From the NCBI RefSeq assembly GCF_002993975.1, contig NZ_POSO01000004.1, positions 1-64,000 on the forward strand: 64,000 bases of DNA, given 5' to 3'. The DNA comes from Apilactobacillus micheneri. Its GTDB lineage: Bacteria > Bacillota > Bacilli > Lactobacillales > Lactobacillaceae. Both the position numbers and the translations under genes were made by a program. Of the stretch, positions 30,480-38,783 are shown one piece after another (the first letter of the stretch is position 1; each line of letters starts with the position of its first letter). The notes below the pieces were generated by a model. The model saw only the letters and a list, made by a program, of their open reading frames with translations, did not search any database and was not told the origin of the DNA.

Positions 30480-32420
30480 TTATTCGCTTTTATGTGGATC
30501 TTGAATACGTTTAAACATCCTTTCCATATCAGCGTTAGAAAATGAAACTAATACTGGTCTACCATGAGGGCAATTAAATGGATTCTGAACTTTTGATAAA
30601 TTATCAATTAAATTAATTGCTTGCTTACGATCAAGGTGATGGTTAGCTTTAATTGCACGTTTACAACTCATCATAATCGCAGTTTTAGCACGAAATGATG
30701 CAACTGATATCTTTTTATTTTCAATAACCCAATCAATCATTGATCGAATTGTTTCTTCTTCATCAGAACCCTTAATCCAAGTTGGATGTTGTTTGACCAC
30801 AAAGCTATTTTTACCAAAAATTTCAATATTAATTCCAACACTGTGCAAAACATCAATTTTTTGTTTAATAATAATTGCATCTGATGCTGGATAATCAAGA
30901 ACTATTGGCACTAACAAGTTTTGTTGATCATCTGAAACATCCCCAATTTCAGTTCTAAACTTTTCATAATTAATTCTTTCTTGAGCAGCATGCTGATCTA
31001 AAATGTACATTCCATTATCTGACTCAGCAATTAAATAAGTTCCGTGTAATTGACCAATATAACGTAAATTAGGAAAACGAGTTACTTCAACATCATCCAA
31101 ATTAGATTCATCAGAATTTAATTCAGATTTAGTTTCTCCAAATGGTAAAGCATCTGATTCATTATCATATTTTTCTTTAAAGTTAATTACTGAAGAACTA
31201 ATTAAATCAGACTTATTTTTAATAATAATCGAGTTTTCTACATTACTAGCTTCAACATCTGATTTCACCGATTCGTCAATTGTGTCGTCCAAATCATAAC
31301 TTTTGTTATTATCTTTAAACTTTTCAAGACTACTTACTGGATGGTGAGTCGATGCTTTATTTAAATCCATTTGAATTTGACTAGTTTCATAATGTGGTTT
31401 AACTGATCGATCACGATTCATCGCATCTGGAATTAAATTTTGTGGAAAAATAGCATCATAAACAGTTTTAGAAATTAAATTGCATAATTGTTCTTCTTTA
31501 CTGATACGCACCGTTTGTTTGGTTGGATGAACATTAACATCAATTAAAGTTGGGTCTAAATTGATATTTAAAGTGACAATTGGATAACGTCCAACCATTA
31601 ATTTAGATCCGTATCCATCGGTTAAGGCTTTAAAAATATTATAATTTTTCACATACCTGCCATTTAAAATAATGGTGACATAGTTTCTAGATGCCCTAGT
31701 TAATTCTGGCAAACTAATATAACCATTAATCTTAAAGTCATCATCTTGATTATTGATTTTAATAATTCGTTTTAAATTTCTAGCACCATAAATATCGCCA
31801 ATTACTTGTTGGAGATTATTACGACCCGAAGTACGAATTAGTTCTCGATTATTATGCACAAGTGAAAAGGCAATATTGGGATGCCCAATTGCTAACCTAT
31901 CAACAATATCAGTAATCTTAGCTAATTCAGTTTGTAAGGACTTCATATATTTTAATCTTGCTGGAGTGTTATAAAATAGATCACTAACTGTGATTGATGT
32001 CCCTCTTCTAGATTCAGAAGGCATAATAGATTCAATCTTGCTTCCTCTAATATGAAGTTTAGTACCTTCATCCCCGGTAGAAGTTTTTAATTGCACATCC
32101 GAAACAGATGCAATAGAAGGCAATGCTTCACCTCGAAAACCTAATGAATGAACTTTAAATAAGTCTTGAGGATTATTAATCTTACTGGTGGCGTGACGCT
32201 TAAAAGCCAATTTAATATCATCGTTTTCAATTCCGATACCATCATCAACAACTTGCATACTATTTAACCCAGCATCCTTAACGTTAATATCAATCTGCGT
32301 GCTTTTGGCATCAATAGAATTTTCCACTAATTCTTTAATTACTGAAGCAGGTCTTTCAACAACTTCACCAGCAGCAATCTGATCAGCTAAAACCGGTGTT
32401 AATTCATGAATTTTTGACAA
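30480..32420 (-). CDS. mutL: DNA mismatch repair protein MutL
   Basis: Mismatch repair ATPase and endonuclease, 646 aa. The GHKL ATPase motifs ELVENSIDA, DDGIGI and HSLGFRGEAL are at the N-terminus; the C-terminal domain has DQHAAQERINYE, the metal-binding DQHA(X)2E(X)4E motif of nicking MutL proteins, as expected in a species without MutH. TTG at 32418-32420 sits seven bases after GGAGG and gives (M)SKIHELTPVLADQIAAGE; the upstream GTG is an artefact of the open frame. It directly follows mutS. Confidence 0.96.
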   Translation of the reverse strand: MSKIHELTPVLADQIAAGEVVERPASVIKELVENSIDAKSTQIDINVKDAGLNSMQVVDDGIGIENDDIKLAFKRHATSKINNPQDLFKVHSLGFRGEALPSIASVSDVQLKTSTGDEGTKLHIRGSKIESIMPSESRRGTSITVSDLFYNTPARLKYMKSLQTELAKITDIVDRLAIGHPNIAFSLVHNNRELIRTSGRNNLQQVIGDIYGARNLKRIIKINNQDDDFKINGYISLPELTRASRNYVTIILNGRYVKNYNIFKALTDGYGSKLMVGRYPIVTLNINLDPTLIDVNVHPTKQTVRISKEEQLCNLISKTVYDAIFPQNLIPDAMNRDRSVKPHYETSQIQMDLNKASTHHPVSSLEKFKDNNKSYDLDDTIDESVKSDVEASNVENSIIIKNKSDLISSSVINFKEKYDNESDALPFGETKSELNSDESNLDDVEVTRFPNLRYIGQLHGTYLIAESDNGMYILDQHAAQERINYEKFRTEIGDVSDDQQNLLVPIVLDYPASDAIIIKQKIDVLHSVGINIEIFGKNSFVVKQHPTWIKGSDEEETIRSMIDWVIENKKISVASFRAKTAIMMSCKRAIKANHHLDRKQAINLIDNLSKVQNPFNCPHGRPVLVSFSNADMERMFKRIQDPHKSE

Positions 32421-32437
32421 ATAATCCCCTCCATTCA

Positions 32438-35059
32438 CTATTTTTCAATTTTTTGTTTCCACTTATAAACAGCGTTCATAATTTCCATTGGTGTTTTAGA
32501 CATTAAATCCATACGCTTAATTTCATTAATAATTTTAATATCTGCAACATTTTGTTTCTTATTTTTAGGATTGTCATCATTAAATAATGATAATTGATGT
32601 TCTTCTTCATCATTTTTAGTTTCATCTTTTGCAACTGGTGAGGTCTGAATGTTCATCACTTTCTCATTATCATCATCTTTATTTTCAAGTGTTTCCAAAA
32701 TATTATCTGCACGTGATAACAGTTTATCAGGTAAACCTGCCAATTTAGCAACATGAATTCCATAAGATTTATCAGCAGCACCTTTTTTGACTTTATGCAA
32801 AAATACAAGTTCACCATTTTTTTCAACAGCTCCAACATGAACATTGGTTAAATGATGTAAAGTCGTTTCTAGTTCAGTTAACTCATGATAATGAGTAGAA
32901 AATAGAGTTTTGGCATGAATATTATTATGAACATATTCAATTATTGATTGAGCTAAGGCCATTCCATCATAGGTAGCAGTTCCACGACCAATTTCATCAA
33001 ATAAAATCAGGCTATTTTCAGTTGCATTTTGAATTGCCTCGTTAGATTCTTTCATTTCCACCATGAATGTACTTTCACCAGAAATTAAATCATCAGCTGC
33101 GCCAATTCTAGTGAATATTTTATCAAAAATTGGCATTTGAGCTGATTTAGCAGCAACAAAGCATCCTATCTGAGTCATGATAACTGCTAATGCTAATTGA
33201 CGCATATAAGTACTTTTACCAGACATATTAGGACCTGTAATTAATAATACATTAGTATCAGGATCCATTTTTACGTTATTTGGCACATATGATTGATGCC
33301 CCATAACTTTCTCAACTACTGGATGTCTGCCATCAATAATTTCTAAATCATGATTATCATTTAAAGATGGCTTAACTAAACGATAATTTTCAGATATAAC
33401 TGCAAAACTTTGTAACACATCAAGGGTTGACACTGCAGTTGCTAATTTTTGTAATCTTTTAATTGATTTTTTTACGTTTTCACGTACTTTACTAAATATC
33501 GTATATTCTAATGTTTTAGATTTTTCTTGCGCTTCAATAATTAATTTTTCTTTTTCTTTTAATTCTGGTGTAGAAAATCTTTCAGCATTAGTTAAAGTTT
33601 GCTTTCTCTCATAACGATCCTCTGGTAACTTATTTAAATTAGCCTTAGAAACTTCAATATAATAGCCAAAAACATGGTTATATCCAATTTTAAGGTTACT
33701 GATACCTGTTGCATTGCGCTCTTTGTTTTCAAGCTCAGCTATCCATTTTTTACCATTATTCATTGCATCACGATAATCATCTAAAGTTTTATTATATCCA
33801 TCTTTAATCAAATCACCATCAGTAACTGAAATTGGTGGTTCATCAATAATAGAATCATTAATCATTTGTGCAACATCATCCACCGGATCTAAGGCATCAT
33901 AAATACCATTAAAAGAAGTAGCGTCCATTGATGCTATTTCATACCTTAACTTAGGAATTTGTTCCAAAGAAGACTGTAATTGAATCAAGTCACGACCATT
34001 CACAGAACCAAAAGACACTTTTCCAGCTAATCTTTCTAAGTCATAAACTTTAACCAAAATATCACTAATTTCATTGCGTTCATAATAATGATCTAGTAAT
34101 TCTTGAACCGCATTTTGACGTTGAATAATTTGCTTTTTAACTATTAATGGACGATCTAACCATGTTTTCAGTTTACGACCACCCATTGCAGTTTTAGTTT
34201 CATCTAAAAGCCATAATAAACTACCTGATTTTTTATTGGTACGAATATTTTTATTCAACTCTAAATTATACTGCGAGTTATGATCTAATTTTAAAAATTC
34301 AGTAGGACGATAAGATTCAGCCGCCTTCATATGAGATAAACTACGCTTTTGAGTTTTGATAATATAAGTGATTAAAAGTTCAGCTGTCTTTTTTTCTAAA
34401 CTATTAATCAAATTATTGGTTAAATTATTCATATCATCTTCAATATCAATGTCAGATTGATATGACACTAAAATTCCTAATTTATTAAAAGTATTAATAT
34501 CATCTTCTGAAACATTATCATCAACAATAATTTCTTTAGTTTGTAAACTCATAACTTCATTAATTAAAGTATCAACATTACTTAAAACACTCGTTTTTAA
34601 TTCACCAGTAGAAAGTTCAGCATAAGCAAAGCCATACTTTTTACTATCTTTGTCGTACTCTAAAGCAGTTAAATAATTATTATTTTTGGCATTTTCAGCA
34701 CCAGTTTCAGTTTTTGTTCCAGGGGTTAATAATTGTGTAACTGCTCGTTTAACCATTCCCTTGGCAACTCTTGGATCTTCCATTTGTTCACAAATGGCTA
34801 CTTTATAACCCTTATCTACTAAAGTATTGATGTAAGATTCAACCGCTTTATGAGGAATTCCACACATTGGTATTGGATTACTAGAATTTTTATTTCTAGC
34901 CGTTAATGTTAGTTCCAATATTTGTGCTCCTTTTACTGCATCATCATTAAACATTTCATAAAAGTCACCCAAACGATAAAATAAAAAAGCATCTTTATAT
35001 TGATCTTTAACTTTTTGATATTGTTCCATCATTGGTGTTAATTTCGCCGATTTTACCAT
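32438..35059 (-). CDS. mutS: DNA mismatch repair protein MutS
   Basis: Recognises mismatched bases and recruits MutL. The mismatch-wedge motif is in [11 protein letters not shown] near residue 35, with Walker [10 protein letters not shown], the DEIGRGT Walker B and STHYHELT in the ATPase domain; the C-terminal tail ends with the tetramer/beta-clamp-type region. 873 aa. It heads the mutS-mutL-ruvA-ruvB operon, 25 bases after ymdB. Confidence 0.97.
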
Positions 35060-35083: not shown

Positions 35084-35887
35084 CTATCCTTGATAAGGAT
35101 GATCTGGACTAATTAATATTTTCTTTATAGATTTAGCCTTCATACTATGATTATCAATATCAATAATACAACCAGAAACAATTCCACCGCCGTTTTCTTC
35201 GACTTCAAATCTAGTGGGACGTTGTGTTAAAAAGCGATGGATAATATTTTCATATTTCATCCCTAAAACACCATCTGTGGGTCCACACATACCTGCATCA
35301 GTCATAAAGGCAGTTCCCTTTTTCAAAATACGATTATCATTAGTTTGAACATGAGTGTGAGTACCTACCATTGCACTAATTCTGCCGTCTAAATACATAG
35401 CCATAACTTGCTTTTCGCTGGTTGTTTCAGCGTGAAAATCAACAAATATATTATCAACTTTTGAACTTAATTTATTGACTAATTCGTCAATCATTCTAAA
35501 TGGATCATCAATCGGATCCATAAAAATACGTCCTTGTAAATTAATTACAGCAACTTTTTTGCCATTGACGTTAATAATAGTATAACCATTTCCTGGAACA
35601 TCTTTACCCGGAAAGTTTAAAGGACGAACTAATTTTTTAGTTTCATCTATAAAATCAAATATTTCCTCATTATTCCATGCATGATTACCTAGAGTAATTA
35701 CATCAGCTCCAGAATCCATAATATCTTTATAAACCTTGCGATTAATTCCACGACCAAAGGATGTAGCATTTTCTCCATTAACAATTGTTAATTGTGGTTT
35801 ATAATCTCTTTTTAAGATTGGTAGATATTGTTTTATCATTTTCATTCCGATATTTCCAACAACATCACCAAGAAATAAAATTTTCAT
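35084..35887 (-). CDS. ymdB: YmdB-type metallophosphoesterase (2',3'-cNMP phosphodiesterase)
   Basis: Metallophosphatase of the TIGR00282 family, 267 aa. In Bacillus YmdB hydrolyses 2',3'-cyclic nucleotides and influences RNase Y-linked gene control. Metal ligands are intact: FLGDVVGNIG, NGENA, TLGNHAW, VDFHAETTSEK and GTHTHVQT. ATG at 35885-35887 follows GAGG. It is next to rny, as in Bacillus; note that the adjacent RNase Y has a damaged catalytic site while this enzyme does not. Confidence 0.93.
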   Translation of the reverse strand: MKILFLGDVVGNIGMKMIKQYLPILKRDYKPQLTIVNGENATSFGRGINRKVYKDIMDSGADVITLGNHAWNNEEIFDFIDETKKLVRPLNFPGKDVPGNGYTIINVNGKKVAVINLQGRIFMDPIDDPFRMIDELVNKLSSKVDNIFVDFHAETTSEKQVMAMYLDGRISAMVGTHTHVQTNDNRILKKGTAFMTDAGMCGPTDGVLGMKYENIIHRFLTQRPTRFEVEENGGGIVSGCIIDIDNHSMKAKSIKKILISPDHPYQG

Positions 35888-35945
35888 ATTTATCCTCAAT
35901 TCATTTATATATATGTAATTAATTTTACACCGATTTAATAAAAAT

Positions 35946-35970
35946 AAAAAAGGCCAAATGGCCTTTTTTA
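35946..35970 (-). terminator. rny terminator
   Basis: AAAAAAGGCCA pairs perfectly with TGGCCTTTTTT around a 2-base loop, beginning at the rny stop codon. The T-tract lies on the minus strand, so rny ends before ymdB. Confidence 0.92.
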
Positions 35971-37533
35971 TTTTGCATATTCAATTGATCTTACTTCTCT
36001 AATGATGGTTACCTTAATATGTCCTGGGTACTCCATATCAGATTCAATTTTATTCTTAATGTCTCTTGCTAAAACAATTGCTTGAGTATCAGATAGTTTA
36101 TCTGGTTTAACAATTATGCGAATTTCTCGACCTGCTTGAATAGCATAGCTCTTTTTAACTTGATCGAAACTATCACCAATTTTTTCAAGACTTTCAAGAC
36201 GATGAACGAAACTTTCCAAAGACTTGCTTTTAGCTCCCGGTCTAGAAATTGCAATTTTATTAGCAATACTTACTAATTCTGAAATAATATACTTAGGTTT
36301 TCTACTTTCATCATCACTGGCAATTGAATCAATAATAGCGGGACTTTCATGATATTTCTTAGCCAGATCAATTCCAATATCAATATGAGAACCTTCAGTT
36401 TCATTATTAACAGAACGACCTATTTCGTGTAATAATCCTGCGCGTTTTGCTAAAACAACGTCTTCGCCTAGTTCAGATGCTAATACACCAGATAATTTTG
36501 CGACTTCGATTGAATGACTCAATACATTTCTGCCATAGTAAATTTTGAATTGTAATTTACCAATCATTCCAATCATTTCAGGATTCATAGAATGAATTCC
36601 TAAGTCAAAGACAGTTTCTTCACCGATTTCTTGAATTTTTTCGTCAAGTTCACGACGACTTTTATCAACCATTTCCTCAATACGAGCTGGATGAATGCGA
36701 CCGTCTTTAATCAATTTTTCCAATGCCATTTTAGCAACTTCACGTCTAATTGGATCAAATCCACTCAATACAACAGCTTCTGGAGTATCATCAATGACTA
36801 AATCAATCCCAGTGAGGGTTTCAAATGTACGAATATTGCGACCTTCTCTACCGATAATACGACCTTTCATATCATCACTTGGTAAAGTAACCACTGAAAC
36901 AGTAGTTTCGGAAACAATATCAGCAGCACTTTGTTGTATTGCTTCAATCACAAGATTCTTAGCGTTATTACTTGATTCTTTTTGGGCTTCATTATAACTA
37001 TCTTTAACCATTTTAGCCCTTTCATCTGCTAATTGATCACTAGTTTCTTTAATAATCAAGTCCTTAGCTTCGTCTTGAGAAAGTGCGGATATTTTTTCCA
37101 ATTCAGTTTGGCGTTGTTCAACCAATCTATCGGCTTCCTGCTGTTTTTGTTCCAACTTCTTTTGATTAGCGTTAAGTTTTTCATCTCTTCTATTAAGAGA
37201 ATCTTCCCTTTTATCGAAAGCATCATCTTTTCTATCTAAAGCATCTTCTCGTTGAATTAAACGATTTTCTTGTCTCTGTACTTCTAGACGTCTTTGTTTA
37301 ATTTCTTTTTCAATATTAGAACGATACTGATTGCTCTTCTCTTTAGCTTCAAGAATTTTTTCTTTAGAAGATGTTTTTGCTTGTCGTTTAGCATTATCTA
37401 AGATGTCTTTAGCACTTTTGTGAGCAATAGCCAATTTCTTTTCAACTATGTTTTTGTGTAAAAACATACCAACAAAAGCACCTAAAACAACAGCGATGAT
37501 TACGAGGATTATATCAATTAATATATAATTCAT
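35968..37533 (-). CDS. rny: RNase Y with altered HD catalytic residues
   Basis: Membrane-anchored protein of the RNase Y family, normally the main mRNA-initiating endonuclease of Firmicutes. Domains in 521 aa: N-terminal membrane helix (3-24), long charged coiled coil (about 30-200), KH domain with [13 protein letters not shown] (223-235), HD domain (about 335-430) and the conserved C-terminal domain ending [11 protein letters not shown]. Compared with the Bacillus protein as I recall it, the HD site has changed: H340 and H383 remain, but the signature HD is H369-E370, the later HH pair is D407-D408 and the last ligand Asp is N425; the EH before it is also lost. The codons are clear (GAA, GAT, AAT). 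It may be non-catalytic or use other ligands. Ends at its own terminator before ymdB. Confidence 0.93.
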
Positions 37534-37727: not shown

Positions 37728-38783
37728 TTATTTACTCTCTTTTTGCTTATTATCTTCTGATTTAGTATCATCAGGTTCTTCTTTTGAGTCATCTTCATCC
37801 ATGCCATAAGCAACACGAACTTTTTTATTAATTTCACTCATTTTATCAGGATTATCGACCAAGTATTGCTTAGCATTTTCTCTACCTTGTCCGATACGTT
37901 CATCACCATATGAATACCAAGAACCAGACTTATTAATAATATCTTGATCAACAGCCATGTCTACCAATTCACCGGTTTGAGAAATACCTTTACCATACAT
38001 AATATCAACTTCAACACGTTTAAATGGAGGAGCTACCTTATTTTTAGCAACTTTAATCTTGGTACGATTACCTATAACATCAGTACCATTCTTAATTTGT
38101 TCTGCTCTTCTAATGTCTAATCGAATAGTTGAATAGAATTTTAGAGCACGTCCACCAGGAGTAGTTTCAGGATTACCAAACATAACTCCAACTTTTTCTC
38201 TAATTTGATTAATAAATAGAGCAATAGTTTTAGTCTTATTAATAGATCCAGATAATTTTCTAAGGGCTTGTGACATTAAACGAGCTTGTAGTCCAACATG
38301 GGCATCACCCATTTCACCTTCAATTTCTGCACGTGGTACTAATGCAGCAACAGAATCAACTACTACTATATCAACGGCACCACTAGAAACTAAAGCATCA
38401 CAAATTTGAAGTCCTTGTTCACCAGTATCAGGTTGTGATAATAATAAATCATCAATATTAACACCTAAATTATTAGCATAAACTGGATCTAGAGCGTTTT
38501 CAGCATCAATATATGCTGCAGTCCCACCTTGTTTTTGAACTTCAGCGACTGCTTGTAATGCAAGTGTTGTTTTACCGGAACTTTCTGGGCCATAAATTTC
38601 CACAATTCTTCCACGAGGGAATCCACCCACTCCAAGTGCATTATCTAATGCAAGTGAACCAGTTGGAATTGTTGAAATTCTAGTGTCTCCACGATCTCCC
38701 ATTCTCATAATGGATCCTTTACCGAATTCTTTTTCAATTCGTTTTAAAGCACCATCTAGAGCGGCTTTACGTTCATCAGCCAT
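37728..38783 (-). CDS. recA: recombinase RecA
   Basis: Forms the nucleoprotein filament for homologous recombination, SOS induction and transformation. Walker [10 protein letters not shown] near residue 65, the [18 protein letters not shown] region, L2 loop [15 protein letters not shown] and an acidic C-terminal tail are normal in 351 aa. An SOS box and a sigma-A promoter lie upstream (38833-38883). Confidence 0.98.

Follow-up and report, generated by a model that had tools for sequence, protein, structure and literature searches.

The window, by which we mean the whole stretch of 64,000 nucleotides of Apilactobacillus micheneri under analysis, carries on its reverse strand a gene of the RNase Y family that lies between recA and ymdB, with mutS as the next gene downstream of ymdB (Table 1). 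Herein the recA-linked copy, namely the gene of the window, is taken as RnyA and a second copy found elsewhere in the genome as RnyB, both names being labels of this analysis. The frame of rnyA has no internal stop, and its translation of 521 residues is matched by the TIGR03319 model of RNase Y at 702.8 bits over positions 1-514 of the 514 of the model, the cut-off being 454.35. Moreover, Pfam recognises RNase_Y_N (PF12072, residues 8-205, 208.3 bits), KH_1 and HD in it, and the GREGRNIR loop of its KH domain (residues 228-235) is intact. The product is by sequence a full-length member of the RNase Y family with normal domains, just as an earlier note on this DNA had described it. As for the neighbours, YmdB beside rnyA appears intact (PF13277, 354.8 bits); its start codon in the list of open reading frames is TTG, and the true start may lie a few codons downstream. 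The genes mutS and mutL (window 30480-35059) are both full length with good family matches.

Table 1. Features of the rnyA locus in the window, and the second RNase Y gene of the same genome
Feature	Position	Strand	Basis or remark
rnyA, RNase Y-family protein, 521 aa, HD catalytic site lost	35968..37533	-	TIGR03319, 702.8 bits
N-terminal membrane helix, about residues 4-24	37462..37524	-	hydrophobic stretch in translation
Coiled-coil region, about residues 25-205	36919..37461	-	PF12072 match and alignment
KH domain, about residues 206-276	36706..36918	-	PF00013 (KH_1) at 216-272
HD domain, about residues 336-430	36244..36528	-	PF01966 at 337-425
C-terminal domain, residues 431-521	35971..36243	-	last residues EYAK, no extension
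recA, upstream neighbour	37728..38783	-	marks the rny locus common to most single-copy relatives
ymdB, downstream neighbour	35084..35899	-	profile match
mutS, next gene downstream of ymdB	32438..35059	-	profile match
rnyB	G000:C10:291100-292680 (L003:8101-9681)	-	TIGR03319, 497.2 bits, above cut-off

The HD domain of RnyA merits a closer look. In fact H340, H369 and H383 are retained in its catalytic site, while E370, D407, D408 and N425 stand in place of D, H, H and D, and the residues listed in the earlier note (H340, E370, H383, D407-D408 and N425) are all present in the translation. When six ligands are scored (H340, H369, D370, H383, H408 and D425), three of the six conserved ones are gone, by the changes D370E, H408D and D425N. 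The first His of the SHHGD motif, H407, is changed as well but was left out of the ligand count, as it is S in 1 of 118 references and in 9 of 64 RnyB. The residues E370 and N425 and the lack of His at 407 and 408 recur in all 16 genomes examined of the window's genus, so that chance, a sequencing error or the oddity of a single strain is ruled out.

A first alignment contained the window RnyA and 79 RNase Y-like proteins and covered 60 genomes (20 RnyA, 20 RnyB and 40 single copies); none of the 40 single-copy genomes in it shows loss of an HD ligand. For the reference set used thereafter, which has 137 members, the 40 single copies were joined by 78 proteins of named records and by 19 that belong to the closest two genera with a single copy. 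The named-record scan gave at least 80 loci, of which 78 (L118-L195; Bacillus, Staphylococcus, Streptococcus, Enterococcus, Clostridia and others) were used as references; the other two are L116, which is the RnyB of Levilactobacillus hammesii, and L117 (Paucilactobacillus wasatchensis), whose genome is G017 and had thus entered the count before. One full copy is present in the genomes of 59 references from the window's family and order and in 49 named genomes, and the other 29 named records are of unchecked copy number. Across this set the catalytic ligands of RNase Y (H, HD, H, H, D) and both glycines of the GxxG loop are kept by 137 of 137, including the single-copy neighbours Paucilactobacillus (g3) and g6 (21 of 21 intact), and the window RnyA departs from this ligand set. 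With the ligands lost throughout the genus and kept throughout the references, the loss of the HD active site that the earlier note had proposed is confirmed. The same note had conceded that its claim would fall if E, DD and N were common at these positions in active RNase Y; they occur in 0 of 137 references, and the loss stands. The changed EH of the motif KEHP, which it also listed, has to be dropped as meaningless, since the residue after E396 is H in only 23 of 137 references and S in 33.

The question is then how selection acts on a protein of this kind. Two sets of pairs were used for dN/dS, where the first comprises 12 RnyA/RnyB pairs (two of them share a genome) and 4 reference pairs, and the larger comprises 15 RnyA/RnyB pairs and 13 reference pairs in which no genome occurs twice and pairs of the same genus may share tree branches. 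In the first set, RnyA has a pooled dN/dS of 0.059 at a dS of 0.66 (KH 0.010, HD 0.064), the references have 0.041 (KH 0.008, HD 0.016), and RnyB has 0.100 (KH 0.053, HD 0.046, N-terminal part 0.161); RnyA and the references are at 0.096 versus 0.102 in the N-terminal part and at 0.036 versus 0.036 in the C-terminal domain. In the larger set, scaled by the dS of the whole gene, the values for KH and HD are 0.018 and 0.058 in RnyA, 0.027 and 0.027 in the references, and 0.049 and 0.043 in RnyB; the KH value of the references thus exceeds that of RnyA here, and the HD contrast between RnyA and the references, which is fourfold in the first set, becomes about twofold (0.058 versus 0.027). As dS approaches saturation in RnyB and in part of the reference pairs, comparisons of one domain with another inside a given pair carry more weight. 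The HD/KH ratio of dN is 3.26 (2.51-4.79) in RnyA, 1.01 (0.74-1.56) in the references and 0.89 (0.64-1.26) in RnyB, and the KH/C-terminal ratio is 1.02 (0.69-1.44) in RnyB versus 0.60 (0.45-0.80) in the references, a sign of relaxation in the KH domain of RnyB with intervals that overlap. RnyB has the higher dN of the two copies in every domain. When both copies are compared with the Paucilactobacillus enzyme, the KH domain has an identity of 0.88 in RnyA and 0.40 in RnyB, and the HD domain 0.63 in RnyA and 0.68 in RnyB. Altogether, RnyA is under purifying selection that is relaxed mainly in the HD domain; the relaxation there is two- to fourfold, which leaves the domain well short of neutral evolution, as a need to preserve the fold would predict.

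RnyA hence combines the two marks of a pseudoenzyme, namely loss of catalytic residues and purifying selection. Because the ligands are lost while the whole protein is strongly constrained and the KH loop is kept, being as conserved as in the references, the reading of RnyA as a pseudoenzyme or scaffold, which the earlier note had raised, is well supported by sequence. It could be argued that the gene is instead decaying and heading for loss, as it has lost the catalytic site and shows an HD rate above that of the references. This we find scarcely credible, considering the low pooled and KH values of the first set, the open frames of at least 518 residues in all 48 RnyA that were read, and the two matches in each of the 83 sampled genomes from nine genera described below; a decaying pseudogene is ruled out by dN/dS in both pair sets. 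It could also be argued that RnyA has remained active, as a nuclease or a phosphodiesterase, by means of a rebuilt metal site consisting for example of H340, H369, E370, H383 and the acidic residues at 407 and 408. The constancy of H340, H369, E370, H383, D or E at 407 and N425 within the window's genus (16 of 16 genomes) would fit such a site; however, the patterns in sister genera are different (R340 and Y383 in g43; Y383, Q407 and A408 in g16), and the HD domain outpaces the KH domain in RnyA, not in the references. Moreover, the RnyA of G129 is the extreme case with none of the six ligands, and hence no alternative site is common to the orthologues. A remodelled active site is therefore very improbable, and a different metal site, the other option named in the earlier note, finds no general support, as the ligand positions drift to many residues across the orthologues; it may at most apply to the window's genus by itself.

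Besides RnyA, the genome of the window (an assembly of 1.46 Mb in 12 contigs, 93% complete) has a second full-length RNase Y, which is 35% identical to RnyA. The HD motifs of this RnyB are intact (LLHDIGKA, GTHVELG, SHHGD and TADSM), while its KH loop reads GRDEQHIR versus GREGRNIR in RnyA, with GRDE for GREG. Within the window's genus the loop varies as GRDE, GKDE, GKEE and MHDE, thus bringing in acidic residues. RnyB has its own hydrophobic N-terminus, and at the other end it bears a lysine-rich tail that is absent from all 137 reference RNase Y. Such a tail, with a net charge of at least +3 beyond the usual end, is found in 51 of 52 RnyB outside g5, and the 12 RnyB of g5 have 0 or 4 residues beyond that end; no such residues occur in 48 RnyA or in the 137 references. 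This tail may substitute for a lost grip of the KH domain. In Levilactobacillus G090, as in the genome of the window, both copies exceed the TIGR03319 cut-off. RnyB is presumably the catalytically active enzyme, going by its intact motifs. The earlier note had also reasoned that, if the loss is real, some other nuclease must start mRNA decay. This holds in form, the obvious candidate being RnyB, an RNase Y whose HD site is intact, rather than an unrelated enzyme.

To see how far this contrast extends, 48 RnyA and 64 RnyB were read, with both copies from 48 genomes and RnyB only from 16. All 48 RnyA have both GxxG glycines and 44 of them have lost one or more ligands, where the number kept out of six is 0 in 1 protein, 2 in 8, 3 in 16, 4 in 13, 5 in 6 and 6 in 4. 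The four RnyA with all six ligands are those of G035, G094, G208 and G288 (the last from a genome 76% complete), and by genus they make up 2 of 6 in g5, 2 of 5 in g21 and 0 of 37 in the other seven genera. RnyB, on the other hand, has all six ligands in 64 of 64, both GxxG glycines in only 25, one in 31 and none in 8, and the Arg following the KH loop is Gln in 58 of 64. The RnyB with both glycines come from g5 (12 of 12), g16 (7 of 7) and g21 (6 of 7), and there are none among the 38 of g1, g14, g43, g49, g51 and g53. In the window's genus, intact RnyB ligands go together with the loss of one or both glycines in 16 of 16 genomes; thus in the genome and genus of the window the partner keeps what RnyA has lost and has lost what RnyA keeps, as in a subfunctionalised pair. 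Alignment within the family further confines the loss of HD ligands to the recA-linked copies.

The reciprocal damage is not uniform across the clade. With 4 of 48 RnyA keeping all ligands, the split is incomplete in some lineages, and since both glycines remain in the RnyB of g5, g16 and g21, the loss of KH grip is doubtful for them. The genus g16 is mixed in that RnyA ligands are lost and RnyB glycines kept. Damage of both kinds is strongest in the inner genera, including that of the window, and weakest in g5 and g21, which we read as early stages.

The distribution of the two-copy state was examined at several levels. Within the family, for which 301 genomes were sampled, at least two RNase Y matches are present in 83 of 83 sampled genomes of nine genera, namely g1, g5, g14, g16 (Levilactobacillus), g21, g43, g49, g51 and g53. 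Both copies were read in 47 of these 83 genomes and RnyB alone in 16, with 20 unread; one further genome with both copies, G008, lies outside the 83. A second match at E 0.001 also appears in 13 genomes of other genera of the family, where the extra matches are probably short HD matches; for example G024, G025 and G027, which are three of these 13, have one match to the full protein, and G022 with its short second match was counted as single-copy. Paucilactobacillus has one match in all sampled genomes, the other families of the order have one in 23 of 23 genomes, and one RNase Y is present in 49 of 49 named genomes, a few of which are from the window's family. In a phylum sample of 299 genomes at E <= 1e-60, in which Bacilli outside the family are thinly sampled, 287 genomes have one match, 9 have none and 3 have two. 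Those with two are the window's own genome, G521 and G537, and the last two, whose best scores are weak (1e-133 and 3e-170), probably have split genes. As far as sampled, a second RNase Y is close to private to the lactobacillus clade. A separate observation in the same family is that an RNase Y match is absent in 7 of 7 genomes of the genus g46 (G066, G101, G130, G155, G178, G200 and G220), two of which are only 65-68% complete; two RNase J are present in the two g46 genomes checked.

The two copies differ in their surroundings. At least one of recA, ymdB and mutS adjoins the gene in all 39 RnyA loci examined and 27 of 40 single-copy loci, with flanks of about 1 to 1.5 kb inspected. RnyB lies beside a putative alpha/beta hydrolase gene in 16 of 16 g1 loci and in the single loci checked of g14, g16 and g21, and a putative 5'-nucleotidase family gene also adjoins these RnyB except at one locus that ends at a contig edge. 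In a tree of 96 rows built from residues 160-521 with the trait columns removed, RnyA forms one clade (SH-aLRT 95) and RnyB another (SH-aLRT 94, under a warning of long branches), and both fall within the family. The closest neighbours of RnyB in this tree are the Paucilactobacillus and g6 single copies and not RnyA, a placement that the long branches make uncertain. This placement could mean that RnyB was gained from a relative and did not arise by duplication in place, or it could be a long-branch effect. When one RnyB group is removed, the g5 RnyB moves, while the main RnyB group stays near Paucilactobacillus and g6; the long branches make this shift uncertain too.

The behaviour of g5 raises the possibility of two origins, in which the second gene of g5 and that of the other eight genera were gained independently and the HD loss of RnyA came after both. 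The neighbours of the g5 RnyB (one locus checked) differ from those at the other RnyB loci, its KH loop is different (GNSG/GNAG), and it is the group that shifts in the tree; against this, all RnyB form one clade in the full tree at the support given above, though long branches meet there. We hold two origins to be possible and a single one to be somewhat favoured. The matter concerns history and not the present mechanism, so that two origins can hold together with the division of functions proposed below.

As for the losses themselves, unordered parsimony needs 4 changes for ligand loss overall, and every row with a lost ligand is an RnyA; taken ligand by ligand, the changes are 7 for H408, 5 for D425, 3 for H383, 2 for H340, 2 for D370 and 1 for H369, and the GxxG glycines need 2. 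If loss is treated as irreversible, the 96-row tree requires at least five separate ligand losses, all in RnyA: three within g5, one in g16 and one in a clade that joins three g21 species with six inner genera. The count of three within g5 rests on G288, and the total is three without that genome. Since there is no ligand whose loss extends to every member of the clade of g21 and the inner genera, the true number of losses is probably higher than five.

The ligand loss and KH retention of RnyA, the ligand retention, KH change and basic tail of RnyB, the purifying selection and the co-occurrence of the two genes together point to a division of RNase Y functions over two proteins. We consider it probable that RnyA is an RNA-binding scaffold, a pseudoenzyme serving a catalytic RnyB, most likely within mixed coiled-coil oligomers. 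In such a scenario the ancestor of the lactobacillus clade would have gained a second RNase Y gene, via duplication or from a relative. RnyA, at the recA-rny-ymdB-mutS locus, would have kept the membrane helix, the coiled coil and the canonical KH domain and lost its HD ligands stepwise, whereas in RnyB the HD site would have stayed complete and the KH loop would have changed, with the GxxG glycines lost in six of nine genera and a lysine-rich C-terminal tail present outside g5. The two proteins would pair through the parallel coiled coil and the C-terminal strand, as has been proposed for homodimers of RNase Y; RnyA would supply RNA capture by its KH domain and contacts with the degradosome, RnyB would cut, and both would be anchored in the membrane.

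The pairing step is suggested by work on RNase Y of other bacteria. RNase Y dimerises via its coiled coil and the C-terminal strand has also been modelled as a dimer contact (PMC9775385). In S. aureus, replacement of HD by AA left RNase Y without activity, and the dead but anchored protein partly reversed the phenotype of an anchorless RNase Y, which the authors attribute to re-anchoring by dimers (PMC4608709). A mixed coiled-coil oligomer would be the simplest way for both copies to be needed. A stricter version, in which the pair is an obligate two-subunit endonuclease with RNA capture (the KH domain of RnyA) and catalysis (the HD domain of RnyB, helped by the polybasic tail) on separate polypeptides, has in our view slightly less than an even chance of being correct.

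Alternatively, labour could be divided with no complex at all. RnyB would then do the cutting by itself, and RnyA would act apart from it in the membrane, either as an RNA-binding protein or as a degradosome scaffold, by bringing in partners or protecting RNAs from cleavage. The constraint on RnyA in the first pair set, which matches that of the references in the N-terminal part, the KH domain and the C-terminal domain, agrees with this, as do the own hydrophobic N-terminus of RnyB and its basic tail outside g5, which could bind RNA. The rates of RnyA and RnyB do covary (partial r of 0.84 given RecA and 0.67 given MutS, over 18 pairs, leaving out pairs in which RecA, 5 of 18, or MutS, 2 of 18, was missing or too short), but no signal specific to the pair stands out, as the controls given RecA reach 0.76 for RnyA with MutS and 0.95 for RnyB with MutS. 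Yet the regions proposed to mediate dimerisation of RNase Y are retained in both proteins, two related coiled coils in one membrane would need insulation from each other, and the S. aureus work is suggestive of pairing between dead and live RNase Y (PMC4608709). We therefore regard a division of labour with separate proteins as unlikely, though clearly less so than a remodelled site. The length of the coiled coil in the alignment (positions 25-213) is 189 in 48 of 48 RnyA and 64 of 64 RnyB; this was dropped as evidence for a heterodimer, for 33 of 36 single copies of the family share it. The net charge of the coiled coil is -1.5 in RnyA, -7.4 in RnyB and -6.6 in the references, a contrast that is suggestive at most.

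The other factors of RNA decay were surveyed in 14 genomes, among them that of the window, two single-copy genomes and two that lack RNase Y. Two RNase J-family proteins above the cut-off are present in 14 of 14. The PSP1 family, to which YaaT of the B. subtilis Y-complex belongs, is absent in all 14. The YlbF family, whose proteins are related to specificity factors of RNase Y, is absent in 3 of 14 (G000 of the window, G015 of the same genus, and G071) and present in 11. Because of these absences, RNase Y of these bacteria cannot use a complete Y-complex of the B. subtilis type.

It is instructive to compare the pair with systems already described. RNase Y (Rny/YmdA/CvfA) of Bacillus subtilis and Staphylococcus aureus has, like RnyA and RnyB, a membrane helix, a coiled coil, and KH, HD and C-terminal domains; however, one protein binds and cuts there, while RnyA and RnyB each have only one of the two features intact, the KH loop in the former and the HD site in the latter. 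RNase J1 and J2 of Firmicutes are also a pair of paralogous decay nucleases, one of which does most of the catalysis with the other acting chiefly as its partner, yet they have an unrelated metallo-beta-lactamase fold, and the damage in RnyA and RnyB is reciprocal, with HD in one and KH in the other. The archaeal exosome likewise joins catalytic and non-catalytic paralogues, Rrp41 and Rrp42, in one ring, but it is a phosphorolytic exonuclease without a trade-off of KH and HD within the pair. Closest to RnyA is the HD-to-AA mutant of S. aureus, which is likewise full-length and anchored, is inactive, and is taken to pair with live RNase Y (PMC4608709). That protein is a mutant made at the bench, whereas RnyA is natural, conserved, and accompanied in the same genome by a paralogue that its motifs mark as live. 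No report of a second or inactive RNase Y in lactobacilli was found in the titles and abstract beginnings of the open-licence literature; the RNase Y family is known, and a reciprocal division of its binding and cutting over a pair of paralogues is new as far as found.

RNase Y is a main decay-initiating endonuclease of Gram-positive bacteria, and the contribution of its KH domain to cutting is hard to separate from catalysis, as both are normally on one protein. In the lactobacillus clade, evolution appears to have separated KH binding and cutting, with intermediates alive today. A practical consequence concerns annotation, in that the family model labels the recA-linked gene 'ribonuclease Y', so that probably the wrong gene is named as the enzyme. 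If the two-subunit reading is true, these bacteria would offer a natural series, from the intact RnyA of some g5 and g21 genomes to the RnyA of G129 with none of the six ligands, that shows the division of a nuclease. In the clade one can thus test directly if an RNase Y oligomer allows KH binding, anchoring and cutting to act in trans.
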